From positions 620,001 through 684,000 of the forward strand of contig NZ_BBMP01000022.1 in assembly GCF_000755245.1 (NCBI RefSeq): a DNA stretch of 64,000 bases, written 5' to 3'. Source of the DNA: Halococcus sediminicola (GTDB lineage: Archaea; Halobacteriota; Halobacteria; Halobacteriales; Halococcaceae). Shown here one piece after another: positions 38,327-46,613 of the stretch; position 1 is the first letter of the stretch; each line of letters begins with the position of its first letter. The position numbers and the translations under genes are program-made. The notes under the pieces are model-generated. The model was not told where the DNA came from. It was given only the letters and a program-made list of their open reading frames with translations, and did no database searches.

Positions 38327-40555
38327 ATGAACGTCTCGGAGCTGTCGGGCGTCCCCGAGTGGCTGCCCGAGCATCTGCGCGGGGACGGCATCGAGGAGCT
38401 GTATCCACCGCAGGCGGAAGCCGTCGATGCGGGCGTCACCGAGGGCGAGAGTCTCGTGGCGAGCGTCCCCACGGCGTCGGGGAAGACCCTCATCGCGGAA
38501 CTCGCCATGACCGCGAGCGTCGCCCGCGGTGGCAAGGCGCTCTACATCGTGCCGCTGCGTGCGCTCGCCGGCGAGAAGCGCACCGAGTTCGAGACCTTCG
38601 AGCAGTACGGACTCACCATCGGGGTCTCCACCGGCAACTACGATTCGGACGGCGAGTGGCTCGCCTCGTGTGACATCATCGTCGCCACCAGCGAGAAGGT
38701 CGACTCGCTCGTCCGCAACGACGCACCGTGGATCTCGCAGTTGAGCTGTGTGGTCGCCGACGAAGTCCACCTCGTCGACGACGGCCATCGCGGCCCCACG
38801 TTGGAGGTCACGCTCGCGAAACTCCGCCAGCGCAATCTCGGTCTGCAAACGGTGGCGCTCTCGGCGACGATCGGCAACCCCGAGATCCTCGCCGACTGGC
38901 TCGACGCCGAACTCGTCGACTCGACGTGGCGACCGATCGACCTGAAGAAAGGCGTCCACTTCGGGCAGGCGGTCCACTTGGAGGACGGCGAACAACACGA
39001 ACTCGGGGTCGAGGACGGCGAGAAGCCGACTGCGGCCATCGTGCGCGATACGCTCGCCGACGAGGGATCGACGCTCGTGTTCGTCAACTCCCGGCGCAAC
39101 GCCGAGGCCGAAGCCCGCCGGCTCGCCAACACAGTCGAAAGCGAACTCACAGGGGAGGAACGCGACCGCCTCGCCGGCGTGGCCGCCGATATCCGCGACG
39201 TGAGCGACACCGAGACGAGTACCGATCTGGCGAACGCGGTCGAAAGCGGGGCGGCCTTTCACCATGCCGGTCTGGCCTCTGACCATCGCGAACTCGTCGA
39301 GGACGCCTTCCGCGAGCGCCTGCTGAAGGTGGTCTCGGCGACACCAACGCTCGCGGCGGGCGTCAACACGCCGAGTCGCCGGGTCGTCGTCCGCGACTGG
39401 CGGCGCTACTCCGGCGAAGCCGGCGGGATGCAACCGCTCTCGGTGCTCGAAGTCCACCAGATGTGCGGCCGTGCGGGCCGGCCGGGTCTCGATCCCTACG
39501 GCGAAGCGCTGCTGCTCGCCAAGAGCCACGACGAACTCGACGAACTCTTTGACAGGTATATCTGGACCGAACCCGAACCTGTCCGCTCGAAACTCGCCGC
39601 CGAACCCGCTCTCAGAACCCATCTGCTCGCCACCATCGCCTCCGGGTTTGCGGGGTCGCGCGAGGGACTGCTCGAATTCCTCGACAGAACCCTCTATGCC
39701 ACCCAGACCACCGAAGGTGGCCGTCTCGAACGGGTCACGGACTCGATGCTCGACTATCTCGTCGCCAACGACTTCCTCGAACGCGACGGCGATGACCTGG
39801 CCGCGACCTCGCTCGGCCATACGGTCTCGCGACTCTATCTCGACCCGATGAGCGCCGCCGAAATCGTCGACGGTCTCGAGAGCGCCGACGATCGCCCGAG
39901 CGCGCTCGGCCTCTTCCATCTCGTGAGTCGCACACCCGACATGTACGAACTCTATCTCCGATCCGGTGACCGCGAGGAGTACACCATGATCGCCCACGAG
40001 CACGAGACCGAGATGCTGGGCAGCGTTCCGAGCGAGTTCGAGGAACGCTGGGAGGACTGGCTCTCGGCGCTCAAGACTGCGAACATGCTCGACGACTGGG
40101 CGAGCGAACTCGACGAAAGCACCATCACCGACCGCTACTCGATCGGGCCGGGCGACCTCCGAGGGAAGGTCGACACTGCCGAATGGCTGCTGTCGGCCGC
40201 CGAGCGTCTCGGGGGCGAACTCGGACTGGAGTGGGCACCCGCCGTCAGAGAAGCCAGGACGCGCGTCGCCCACGGCATCCGTCCGGAACTCATCGACCTC
40301 GCGGGCGTGCGCGGCGTCGGTCGCAAGCGCGCCCGCCGGCTGTTCGAGAACGACATCGAGACGCGCGCCGACCTCAGAAACGCCGAGAAATCGGTCGTGC
40401 TAGGCGCGCTCCGCGGGCGGACGAAGACTGCAGAGAACGTGCTGGAGAACGTCGGTCGGAGCGATCCCTCGATGGCGGACGTCGAACCGGCGGGGTCGGT
40501 GGCGGTCGTCGAGGGCGAGGAACGCGAAGACCAGTCGAACCTCGGTGAGTTCTGA
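38327..40555 (+). CDS. hel308: Hel308 DNA repair helicase
   Basis: A 742-residue Ski2-like superfamily 2 helicase that unwinds stalled replication forks. Motif I is PTASGKTL, motif II VADEVHL (DEVH), motif [11 protein letters not shown] and motif [12 protein letters not shown] winged helix, ratchet and C-terminal HhH-like domain ([20 protein letters not shown]) complete the family order. ATG at 38327. The KEOPS gene cgi121 follows 25 bases later, an arrangement seen in other archaea. Confidence 0.96.
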
Positions 40556-42025: not shown

Positions 42026-42871
42026 ATGACTCGGGGGCAAGCGGGCGCGGAGTCGAAACGAATCGAGGTCGATACCGGCGACGAATCCGTCGACATCCGA
42101 TACCTGACCGCCGGCGAGGGCGACCCTATAATCTTGCTCCACGGCATCGGACTCGACGCGGCGAGCGTCTCGTGGAAACACACTCTCCCGCATCTCGCCG
42201 AGAATCACCGAGTCATCGCGCCGGACTTCCCGGGTCACGGCGAGAGCGACGGGGCCGAGGAGTACACGATGGAGTCGTATCTCGCCGTTCTCGACGGTCT
42301 CCTCGACGCGCTCGCCATCGAGCACGCGAGTCTCGTCGGCATCTCGATGGGCGGGGCCGTCGCGCTCGGGCACGTACTCGACGATGGAGAGCGAATCGAG
42401 CGGCTCGTACTCGTCGATAGCTACGGACTGGGCCGCGACGCGCCGTGGCGACCGGGTGGGGCGGCGCTACTCAATACTCCCGGGTTCGACGGGTTGATGG
42501 GTGCAGGATTGCTCAATCCGGCGCTCGTCGCGACCAGCCTCACGGGACTCACGGTGAGCCCTTCTCCGGAGTTCGTCACTGATGTCCAGCGGGCGGTCAG
42601 TCCGGCGGCGGCGCGCGCGCTCGGCGCGTGGCAGCGCGACGAGTTCCGGGCCTGTGGACTACGAACCTGTTATCTCGACCGGCTCGACGAACTCGAAGCC
42701 CCAACGCTGCTGGTTCACGGCCGCGAGGACCCCATCTTTCCCATCGCGTGGTCCGAGCGGGCCGCCGAGCGAATCCCCACCAGTGAGTTCGTCCCGTTCG
42801 AGCGATGTGGTCACTGGCCGCCGCGAGAACATCCCGAAAAGTTCGACCGTGTCGTGAGCGACTTTCTCTAG
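42026..42871 (+). CDS. Alpha/beta hydrolase
   Basis: A 281-residue hydrolase. The catalytic triad is Ser (GISMGGAV), Asp (HGREDPIFP) and His (CGHWPPRE), and the oxyanion region is LLHGIGLDAAS. Substrate unknown; esterase, lactonase or C-C hydrolase activity are all possible. ATG at 42026 (MTRGQAGAESK). It is convergent with the PhaJ-like gene (4-base overlap), so it borders the PHA locus but may not belong to it. Confidence 0.88.
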   Translation: MTRGQAGAESKRIEVDTGDESVDIRYLTAGEGDPIILLHGIGLDAASVSWKHTLPHLAENHRVIAPDFPGHGESDGAEEYTMESYLAVLDGLLDALAIEHASLVGISMGGAVALGHVLDDGERIERLVLVDSYGLGRDAPWRPGGAALLNTPGFDGLMGAGLLNPALVATSLTGLTVSPSPEFVTDVQRAVSPAAARALGAWQRDEFRACGLRTCYLDRLDELEAPTLLVHGREDPIFPIAWSERAAERIPTSEFVPFERCGHWPPREHPEKFDRVVSDFL

Positions 42872-43443
42872 GGTTCGTCGAGCATGACGACCGCCTCGCC
42901 GTCGATGACCGTCTCCTCAGCGTCCCGTACCGTCGTCCGCAGTCGATAGCGGTTCTCGCCGAGGTCCTCGACGATCTCGCACTCGGCGGTCACGCGGTCG
43001 TCGATGCCTACCGGGTTGTGGAACTCGACGTCCTGTGAGAGGTAGATGACGAGTCCGGGTAGGCGTGCGAGCGCGGCGCTGATGAGTCCCGAGACGAGGG
43101 TCCCGTGGGCGATGCGTTCGCCGAACATCGTCTCCTCTGCGTACTCCTCGTCGAGGTGGAGCGGGTTCGTGTCGCCGCTGGCCGCGGCGAACGCGCGCAC
43201 GTCGTCGTCGGTGAGTCGCTTCGAGAACTCGACTCTGTCGCCGACCGAGAGCGCGGCGCGCCGGTGTTCGGTGAGTTCGACGTTCCACTCCGGGCGCTCC
43301 TCGCCGGCGACGACTTCCTCGTCGCTGTCGACGCCGAATGCGGCGAGCGTGGCGCGGTTGGCCGCGAGAACGCTGTCGAGGAGGAACGTGGAGTTGCGGA
43401 CCCACGCATCGGTCAGCGTGGAGGGCTTCGATTCGGAACTCAT
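42868..43443 (-). CDS. phaJ: (R)-specific enoyl-CoA hydratase (MaoC/PhaJ-like)
   Basis: A 191-residue hot-dog fold hydratase. The active-site loop is ASGDTNPLHLDEEYA, with Asp91 and His96 as catalytic pair, followed by FGERIAHGTLVSGLI. PhaJ proteins convert fatty acid breakdown intermediates to (R)-3-hydroxyacyl-CoA for PHA synthase, and it is divergent from phaRPEC, which supports that role. The first 60 residues are an extra helical N-terminal part not found in short PhaJ. Confidence 0.88.
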   Translation of the reverse strand: MSSESKPSTLTDAWVRNSTFLLDSVLAANRATLAAFGVDSDEEVVAGEERPEWNVELTEHRRAALSVGDRVEFSKRLTDDDVRAFAAASGDTNPLHLDEEYAEETMFGERIAHGTLVSGLISAALARLPGLVIYLSQDVEFHNPVGIDDRVTAECEIVEDLGENRYRLRTTVRDAEETVIDGEAVVMLDEP

Positions 43444-43662: not shown

Positions 43663-43968
43663 ATGACCGACGAAGACGACGCGACGTGGCCGCCGGCACT
43701 GTGGGCAAAGCAGTTTCAAGAGGCCAGCGAGCAGGCCGTCGAGCAGCAGACGGCGTTCGCAAAGCAGATGATGAACGCCGGGTCGGGAACGGGAGGTCTC
43801 CCGGAGATCGCCGCCACGACCATGGGAACGGCGACGTTCAAGACGCGCGTCCAGAGCGGCGGGCGGATCTCGATTCCCGACGCCGAACGCGAGGCGCTCG
43901 ACATCGAGGAAGGCGACATCGTTCAGACGGTCGTCGTCCCGGTCAAACGCAACAGAGACACATCATGA
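43663..43968 (+). CDS. phaR: PHA regulator PhaR (AbrB-type)
   Basis: A 101-residue protein. The N-terminal half is a helical segment resembling phasin (WAKQFQEASEQAVEQQTAF). The C-terminal half is a SpoVT/AbrB swapped-hairpin DNA-binding domain (FKTRVQSGGRISIPDAEREALDIEEGDIVQ, residues about 62-91). In Haloferax mediterranei the protein of this type represses phaP and itself. Its stop codon overlaps the phaP ATG by four bases. Confidence 0.9.
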   Translation: MTDEDDATWPPALWAKQFQEASEQAVEQQTAFAKQMMNAGSGTGGLPEIAATTMGTATFKTRVQSGGRISIPDAEREALDIEEGDIVQTVVVPVKRNRDTS

Positions 43969-44633
43969 GTCAGTACACCACACCGATCGAAGCGACGTTC
44001 GCGATGCAGCGCACAGCCCTGAAAGGGAGTCAGCAGGCCATCGAGCAGGGTATCGATCTCCAGCAGAACATGGGGAAGATGCTGCTCTCGGGCATCGAGA
44101 GCCAAGAACAGCTCCAGCGACAGAGCGTCGAGGCCGCCGAAGGCGCGACGAAGCAGTACTTCCAGGCGATGGAGACCGCCACGCCCGCCGGGGGCAGCGT
44201 CCGCGGGCTCCGCGAGCCGACCGAGGAGGGCTTCGCCCAGCTGAAGGAGGTCCACGCCGAGAGCTTCGACCAGCTCACGAGCGCTGTCGAGCAGGGTCTC
44301 GACAGCCACGAGGAGTTCGCGGGCGAATACACCGCGACGATGGACGAGGGCTTCGACGAACTGTTCGAGGCCCACGAGGAGATCCAAGAGCGGATGGTCG
44401 AGATGGTCGAACAGGCCGAGAGCCAGAACGAGGAACTCGCCGAGAGCTTCGAGGCACAGCTCGACGAGCAGATGGAGCGCATGGCCGACCTGCAAGAGCA
44501 GTTCGAGGCCCAGTCCGAGCGCCAGCTCGAACAGGCCACGGAGTTCCAAGAACAGCTCCAGTCACAGGTCGAGCAGTTCCAGAGCCAACTCGAATCCCAG
44601 GCCGAGCAGTTCGAGTCGCAGGTCTCGGCCTAG
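43965..44633 (+). CDS. phaP: Phasin PhaP
   Basis: A 222-residue acidic, entirely helical and Gln/Glu-rich protein that coats PHA granules. Repeating EQF, QEQL and SQLE heptads over residues about 130-222 give a long coiled coil. It starts inside the phaR stop (ATGA) and is followed by phaE after 31 bases. Phasins are usually the most abundant granule protein, so one expects a strong ribosome-binding or promoter effect at phaR. Confidence 0.92.
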   Translation: MSQYTTPIEATFAMQRTALKGSQQAIEQGIDLQQNMGKMLLSGIESQEQLQRQSVEAAEGATKQYFQAMETATPAGGSVRGLREPTEEGFAQLKEVHAESFDQLTSAVEQGLDSHEEFAGEYTATMDEGFDELFEAHEEIQERMVEMVEQAESQNEELAESFEAQLDEQMERMADLQEQFEAQSERQLEQATEFQEQLQSQVEQFQSQLESQAEQFESQVSA

Positions 44634-44664: not shown

Positions 44665-45216
44665 ATGAGCAGCATGTCCAATACCGACCCCGAGGAGATA
44701 CAGGAGAACTGGGCGACGATGATGAACGACATGAACGACGCGGTCGCCAAATCGTTCGAGCAGAACATGGAGGCCCAAGCGGCGTTCATGGAGTCGTGGA
44801 TGGGCGCGTTCGAGGACTCGACGCCCGACGCCGACACGATGGAGGAGGGCATGGCCGGCTACGGCCGCGCCTACGAGGTATGGGTCGAGGCCGCCGAACA
44901 GATGAGTTCGCGCATCGCCGACGCCGCCGAGGGCGAGGACGTGAACATGACCGAGTTCCGTGACATCTGGCTCCAGAGCGCCAACGAGGCCTTTTCCGAG
45001 GTGATGGGCACGACCGCCTTCGCCGCCGGCACTGGTGAACTGGTCGGCGACATGATGGACCTCCAGCAGGAGGTCGACGACATGAGTCAGGACACCCTCG
45101 AAAGCCTCGGCTTCGCCACCCGCGACGACGTCGACGAGGTGGCCGAGCGCCTCATCGAACTCGAACGCCGCCAGCACGAGGTCTCGAAGAAACTCGACCG
45201 GCTCCTGGAGGAATAA
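44665..45216 (+). CDS. phaE: PHA synthase subunit PhaE
   Basis: A 183-residue Met- and acid-rich protein, the small subunit of the class III PHA synthase. Features are a helical body with [12 protein letters not shown] and a C-terminal helix [23 protein letters not shown] matching PhaE. Its TAA overlaps the phaC ATG by one base, so synthesis of the two subunits is coupled. The 31-base gap before it is a CA-rich run with TTTTC that may lower readthrough from phaP. Confidence 0.92.
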
Positions 45217-46613
45217 TGAGCGAACGCGACGCGCCGTTCAATCCGTTCACGACGAGTCTCGACGCCCAGCGCCAGACGTTCGAAGCCGCGGCCGACGCCA
45301 TCGAGAAGACCGAACTCGGTCCCGAGCAGCTGTCGCAGATGGCCTCCGTCGAGGTGGGCCAGACCGAAAGCGACGTGGTCTACACCGAGAACAAACTCGA
45401 ACTGCTGCACTACGAGCCACGGACCGACGAGCAACACGACGTGCCGATCCTCGTCATCTACGCGCTCATCAACAAGCCGTTCATCCTCGATCTCCAGCCC
45501 GATCGGTCGGTGATCCGGCGGCTGCTGGAGGCGGGCTTCGACGTCTACATGATCGACTGGAACGAGCCGTCCAGACTCGACCAACATCTGACGCTCGAGG
45601 ACTACGTCACTAGATATATCGACAACTGCGTCGACGTCGTGCGCGAGGAGTCGGGACAGGACTCGATCAACGTGCTTGGCTACTGCATGGGCGGGACGAT
45701 GTCGGCGATGTACGCCGCGCTCAACCCCGAGAAAGTCAGGAATCTCGGTCTGATGGCCGCCGGACTCTGCTTCGACGATACTGGGGGAGTGCTCGAACTC
45801 TGGGGCGACGACGAGTACTTCTCGCCCGACGATTTGACCGAGACCTACGGCAACGCTCCCGCCGAGATGCTCGACGTGGGCTTTGCGCTGATGGACCCCG
45901 TGTCGAACTACGTCTCGAAGTACGTCCGACTCTACGACAACCTGGAGAACGACGACTTCATCGAGAACTTCGGGCGCATGGAGCGCTGGCTCTCGGAGGG
46001 TATTGATGTTGCTGGCGACACGTTCGCCCAGTTCGTCACGGACATCTATCAGGACAACAAGCTCTACAACAACGAACTGTATCTGGGCGACCGACACGTC
46101 GACATCGGGAACATCGACATGCCCGTCCTCCAGATCACGGGCGAGTACGACCACCTGATCCCCTCCGAGACGAGCAAACCGTTCAACGACGTCATCGGCA
46201 GCGAAGACACGGACGTCATCGAATACCCCACAGGTCACATCGGGCTGTCGGTCTCGGGAAGCTCTCACGCGAACGTCTGGCCCGAGGTCTGTGAGTGGTT
46301 CGAGGAGCGCTCACAGGTCGATGCCGAGGACATCGAAATCGAAGATGCGAGCGACGAAGCGGATGCGGCGGTCGATACTCAGGAACCGACCAGCACCCAC
46401 GACGACACCGAGGAGAGCACGGACGCCGCCGAAGACGATGGAGACGACGTCGAGGGCGTCGAGGGTATCGGCCCGACCTACGCCGACCGTCTGCGCGAGG
46501 CGGGCATCGAGACGATCGCCGACCTCGCCGCCGCGGACGTCGAAACGCTGACTGACGCCGCCGAAATACCCGAGAGCCGCGCCGAGGAGTGGCTCGAACA
46601 GGTTTCCGACTAA
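45216..46613 (+). CDS. phaC: Class III PHA synthase PhaC with C-terminal HhH domain
   Basis: A 465-residue polyhydroxyalkanoate synthase. The lipase-like box GYCMGG carries nucleophile Cys157; Asp312 (GEYDHL) and His341 (PTGHIGL) complete the triad. After about residue 365 comes an acidic linker and then, from about 411 to 465, a helix-hairpin-helix domain ([37 protein letters not shown]). Family synthases normally end near residue 360-370, so the last 90 residues are an extension that is longer than in bacterial class III PhaC. Confidence 0.95.

Follow-up and report, generated by a model that had tools for sequence, protein, structure and literature searches.

The gene phaC of Halococcus sediminicola (45216..46613, plus strand; 465 aa by reading frame) lies in the window, by which we mean the whole analysed stretch of 64,000 nucleotides, and it encodes a class III PHA synthase with a C-terminal helix-hairpin-helix (HhH) tail. 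The locus raises the question whether a synthase can itself tie PHA granules to the nucleoid. Bacteria leave this task to separate proteins, as the preliminary description had rightly stated: the known nucleoid tethers of bacterial granules are PhaM, PhaF and PhaH (review, PMC13052382). PhaH is reported to use an HhH domain to bind DNA non-specifically and to distribute the granules (PMC13052382, PMC12028471), while PhaM of Cupriavidus combines activation of PhaC with DNA binding (PMC13052382). Both the PhaC-HhH fusion and the tether hypothesis of the preliminary description, which is a sensible one, are already in print, the HhH domain of Hfx. mediterranei PhaC having been described and likened to PhaH of Caulobacter in 2025 (PMC12028471). 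The long C-terminus of haloarchaeal PhaC has been known since 2010, and its truncation is reported to reduce the activity of the synthase or to remove it altogether (Han 2010, via PMC2939530 and PMC7137286). In Hfx. mediterranei, granules were reported to co-localise with DNA spots at low resolution (PMC8156647). In the literature we came across neither data on DNA binding by a PhaC tail of haloarchaea nor a paper on haloarchaeal tailed phasin-like proteins. Two points are fresh here: HhH and basic tails occupy equivalent positions on archaeal synthases, and phasin-like proteins bear the HhH tail as well.

Results and Discussion

The window shows the gene order of the known haloarchaeal cluster maoC-phaR-phaP-phaE-phaC (PMC7137286), with maoC on the opposite strand. 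This known cluster member, a MaoC-like (R)-enoyl-CoA hydratase (42868..43443, minus strand), matches Pfam MaoC_dehydratas with E=5.5e-22. It is followed on the plus strand by phaR (43663..43968), an AbrB-type regulator assigned from its cluster position and a TIGR01439 match of E=3.5e-5 that stays below the cut-off of the model, and by phaP (43965..44633), a coiled-coil phasin without a tail, assigned from its reading frame, its cluster position and its 37% identity with one of the tailed phasin-like proteins discussed below. The class III synthase subunit gene phaE (44665..45216, plus strand; Pfam PHA_synth_III_E, E=1.4e-13) overlaps phaC by one base. Among relatives collected by peptide patterns, which is not a census, the closest PhaC proteins are those of Halococcus thailandensis and H. 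morrhuae at 87-88%. Elsewhere in the window, at 40295-40393, a partial HHH_5 match lies in the frame of an ordinary Hel308-type helicase of 823 aa.

The catalytic part of PhaC (aa 24-365; 45285..46310, plus strand) is matched by the class III model TIGR01836 with 411.7 bits against a cut-off of 365.3, and contains the lipase-like box GYCMGG and the residues Cys157-Asp312-His341, all three invariant in 36 homologues. A score above the curated cut-off, the Cys-Asp-His triad and the adjoining phaE assign the enzyme to class III. The acidic linker, put at about 40 residues in the preliminary description, measures about 44; its disordered core (aa 371-408; 46326..46439, plus strand) consists of 46% D/E in the part measured and reaches a pLDDT below 50 (about 30-40) in the AlphaFold2 model of the full-length protein. 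Behind it follows the HHH_5 domain (aa 411-465; 46446..46610, plus strand). Pfam HHH_5 (PF14520) covers aa 411-463 with E=2.5e-13 and 50.7 bits, above the gathering cut-off of 27, and the full-length model places aa 411-464 at a pLDDT of 89-96; the isolated tail gave a mean pLDDT of 90.3. The domain was rightly located before, except that residue 411 begins at 46446, not at 46449, and that 46611-46613 is the stop codon. A chance match of HHH_5 is ruled out by the E-value, the presence of the domain in relatives and the confident fold. That the protein combines a class III part with an HhH fold is confirmed, and we regard the architecture of core, acidic linker and HhH domain as practically certain.

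When the predicted tail was compared with solved structures (Foldseek), the N-terminal domains of RadA/Rad51 came out best, followed by Y-family polymerases. The top rows for RadA/Rad51 gave TM-scores of 0.73-0.78 on the query (about 0.77, with an rmsd of 0.9-1.9 Å over 51-58 aligned columns), with a modest E-value of 0.0085, which is usual for domains of such small size. The RadA/Rad51 N-terminal domain is known to bind DNA and proteins; it differs from the PhaC tail in being part of a recombinase and shares 23-35% identity with it. The tail is an HHH_5 domain by its score and its RadA-like predicted fold, yet the HhH pair expected earlier stands only as a fold and not as two motifs. The first hairpin, G417-I418-G419 (46464..46472, plus strand), is a canonical GIG with both glycines invariant in the 36 homologues. 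The second, E450-I451-P452 followed by the conserved Arg455 (46563..46580, plus strand; 31/36 in the same alignment), reads EIPESR and lacks the GxG that a canonical (HhH)2 carries in both hairpins. The domain has a net charge of -13.

This fusion is standard for haloarchaeal PhaC and nothing special to one strain. A search of 292 haloarchaeal genomes with the 36-sequence alignment as model found the HhH tail on PhaC in all 149 genomes among the best 150 matches; this is the search of other haloarchaeal synthases suggested beforehand, and a peculiarity of the Halococcus genome is ruled out. The match runs continuously through the tail in 141 of these 149 genomes. In the other eight, where it stops early, a tail-less PhaC was considered and excluded, as all eight carry the tail behind a longer linker; linker length indeed varies among the 149 genomes. 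Since the model contains the tail, the best matches are biased toward tailed synthases and weaker paralogues fall outside them, and we therefore read the result as tail-less main synthases being rare, which does not imply their absence; PhaC2 of Hfx. mediterranei has no long C-terminus (PMC2939530). All 36 haloarchaeal tails keep G417, G419 and L426, nearly all keep Y422 and W459, and arginines persist after the hairpins of the acidic domain (R425 in 29/36, R427 in 23/36, R455 in 31/36). The long synthases PhaC, PhaC1 and PhaC3 of Hfx. mediterranei have the same build of class III core, linker and HhH domain (PhaC3 scores 61 bits with the tail model; for PhaC the build is given in PMC12028471), and nothing essential distinguishes the Halococcus enzyme, whose linker is fairly short. 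Class III synthases of bacteria and Thaumarchaeota in our sample end tail-less 3-9 aa past the core, with one planctomycete as the exception. Candidatus Methanolliviera carries two adjacent PhaC-like genes (L078, L083).

The non-halophilic Thermoplasmatota offered a second view of the same position. PhaC was found in 25 of 300 genomes of the class searched (26 genes), and a phylum-wide sample added one further, tail-less PhaC. Behind the core, four of these 27 synthases carry an HhH tail, ten a Lys/Arg-rich tail (L196, L231, L235, L236, L244, L245, L246, L248, L251, L252) and 13 essentially nothing; HhH and basic tail together were found on none of the 27. The Lys/Arg-rich tails are histone-H1-like and 14-48 residues long, as exemplified by KTTKTKNKTKKKTKKKGKK and KKSAPAAAKAPKARARRRRSK. 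The four HhH domains have net charges of -2 to +7 and show Lys at the positions of the haloarchaeal hairpin arginines (GIGKK, TGISxKR). While the ten basic tails were counted by eye, a fixed rule of net charge >= +7 in the last 28 residues picked out 9/26 PhaC against 8/249 other ORFs of the same genomes (Fisher p about 2e-6, kinship ignored). A general genome bias as the source of the basic tails is not supported by these control ORFs, again with kinship ignored. In a quick tree of 64 PhaC cores the basic tail accounts for six changes, of which supported branches force four or more; the HhH label requires two and could have a single origin.

Two unrelated devices of a nucleic-acid-binding type at one position of PhaC suggest that they share a job. 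A Lys-rich tail should bind poorly at molar KCl, and an HhH motif grips phosphate largely via backbone amides, which may explain why halophiles use the HhH domain. PhaM of Cupriavidus and PhaF of Pseudomonas, which have the same proposed role, possess histone-like tails that resemble the basic tails of Thermoplasmatota PhaC; they differ from our case in being separate proteins, and in sequence they are unrelated to the HhH tail.

Using the tail of PhaC, we searched 41 genomes for other carriers. The 21 non-synthase carriers that we read comprise 16 copies of an acidic protein, two phasin-like proteins, one Hsp20, one HEAT-repeat protein and one CheA. The acidic protein scores almost as high as PhaC and begins with an amphipathic helix (M-x-LL-x-K-L-K-S-L-L-G-L; for example G000:C7:206640-207464, that is L167:3341-4165). 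By eye, it was identified directly downstream of a shikimate-dehydrogenase-like gene at the loci inspected. Nearly all haloarchaeal genomes that we checked have it, among them some that lack PhaC (G006, G008, G024, G129). The small heat-shock protein Hsp20 carries the tail at its C-terminus (L179:1787-2578, minus strand), the HEAT-repeat protein, from a genome without PhaC, at its N-terminus (L189:2417-3637, minus strand), and the chemotaxis kinase CheA embedded in an acidic linker (L195:1231-4266). These last three are not DNA proteins. More distant HHH_5 copies sit on the ribosomal proteins uS3 and eL32 of this Halococcus genome, and the NCBIfam models of L21 and S2 belong to the same Pfam family. 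On uS3 the domain also follows an acidic stretch, as in PhaC. The uS3 and eL32 copies form another sequence subfamily, with two intact GxG hairpins unlike PhaC, without the Tyr/Trp signature and with much lower tail-model scores. The preliminary description had reasoned that the same tail on many non-DNA proteins would speak against a DNA role, and this is partly what we see: the close subfamily occurs on Hsp20, CheA, the HEAT-repeat protein and the acidic protein, while the ribosomal copies are distant.

Proteins related to PhaP and fused to the PhaC-type HhH tail were found in nine haloarchaeal genomes (G005, G144, G143, G004, G116, G092, G132, G134, G296; loci L193, L194, L201-L208). In G296 the protein bears two tails in tandem (L194), and in G005 about 1 Mb separates the gene from phaC. 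They are putative phasins by similarity to the PhaP of the window (37% identity), a protein that is partly coiled coil. PhaC shares with PhaH of Caulobacter crescentus the combination of granule protein and HhH domain, which is C-terminal in PhaH, the granule location of PhaC being taken from the literature. PhaH is a separate phasin, whereas PhaC is the synthase itself. The PhaH model NF045508 (cut-off 250 bits) showed no full-length match to PhaC and recognised only its tail part, weakly (E=3.8e-4, 17-21 bits). The closer archaeal counterpart of PhaH is the tailed phasin-like protein, a PhaH look-alike.

What, then, does the tail hold? We see about an even chance that it is a nucleic-acid tether for granules. 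The flexible acidic leash and the one HhH domain would allow the synthase, seated at the surface of the granule, to grip nucleic acid irrespective of its sequence, the chromosome being the most likely target. Granules would stay beside the nucleoid and be shared between the daughters, as is held for PhaM, PhaF and PhaH, with the haloarchaeal tether built into the synthase itself; many synthases per granule could offset a weak, half-degenerate site. We infer DNA binding, granule positioning and inheritance by the tail from several lines of evidence: the HHH_5 domain has a confident fold closest to RadA/Rad51 and Y-family polymerases, it is kept in the 149 genomes while the linker varies in length, Thermoplasmatota synthases hold an HhH or a basic tail at the same position, the same tail recurs on the phasin-like proteins of nine genomes (in tandem in one), the arginines after each hairpin persist in an otherwise acidic domain, and PhaH as well as the granule-DNA co-localisation in Hfx. 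mediterranei provide precedents. Against the tether speak the net charge of -13 with a second hairpin lacking GxG, the occurrence of the subfamily on Hsp20, CheA, the HEAT-repeat protein and an acidic protein of PhaC-less genomes, and the reported lowering or loss of activity upon C-terminal truncation, an effect not expected of a tail that serves purely as a tether. Net charge was dropped as a test of DNA binding, as the DNA enzymes PolX (-12), LigA (-10) and Hef (-9) of this archaeon come close to it in acidity (eL32: -10 to -14), and it leaves the case of the PhaC tail undecided.

Alternatively, the tail may be a protein-protein module that aids self-association of PhaC or binding to PhaE or a phasin and supports polymerase activity with no part for DNA, a reading to which we give a chance of about one in three. 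It would account for the other carriers, for the HHH_5 copies on uS3 and eL32, for the reported truncation effect (PMC7137286, PMC2939530) and for the charge, the degenerate hairpin and the conserved Tyr422 and Trp459. It leaves unexplained why related synthases bear PhaM/PhaF-like Lys/Arg-rich tails at the same spot and why arginines are conserved after both hairpins, and it sits poorly with the tail-less class III synthases of bacteria and Thaumarchaeota. Grafting the PhaC3 C-terminus onto PhaC2 likewise failed to activate the latter, which has other defects (PMC2939530). Tether and activation are compatible readings, as shown by PhaM of Cupriavidus, an activator of PhaC that is also a DNA-binding protein (PMC13052382). 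Binding of RNA or the ribosome, which would hold the synthase or the granules close to sites of translation, appears unlikely: uS3 and eL32 of the same genome bear HHH_5 copies and RNA, like DNA, would be a ligand for basic tails, yet the nearest folds are those of DNA repair proteins. A neutral or purely stabilising addition passed around among the acidic proteins of haloarchaea would fit a module so clearly mobile among unrelated proteins, and is nevertheless very improbable given its presence in all of the 149 best-scoring PhaC genomes, with Gly417, Gly419 and Leu426 invariant behind a freely varying linker.

Conclusion

In summary, we tentatively propose, at rather less than even confidence, that archaeal PHA synthases carry their own C-terminal nucleoid tether in two interchangeable builds, with the tailed phasin-like proteins as a second carrier. 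The builds would be the HhH domain of halophiles and a few others, and the H1-like Lys/Arg tail of non-halophilic Thermoplasmatota, gained or lost several times. HhH and basic tails seem to replace each other, which makes a direct test possible in strains amenable to genetics. If the tail is instead a protein-protein module, the case would warn against taking HHH_5 tails in halophiles for DNA-binding by default. If the tether is real, archaea make the link between granule and chromosome part of the synthase instead of relying on a separate phasin, and granule number in bioplastic-producing haloarchaea could be controlled through the tail. Should the reading with two builds be true, the attachment of PHA granules to the chromosome would be general in archaea and would have been invented repeatedly.
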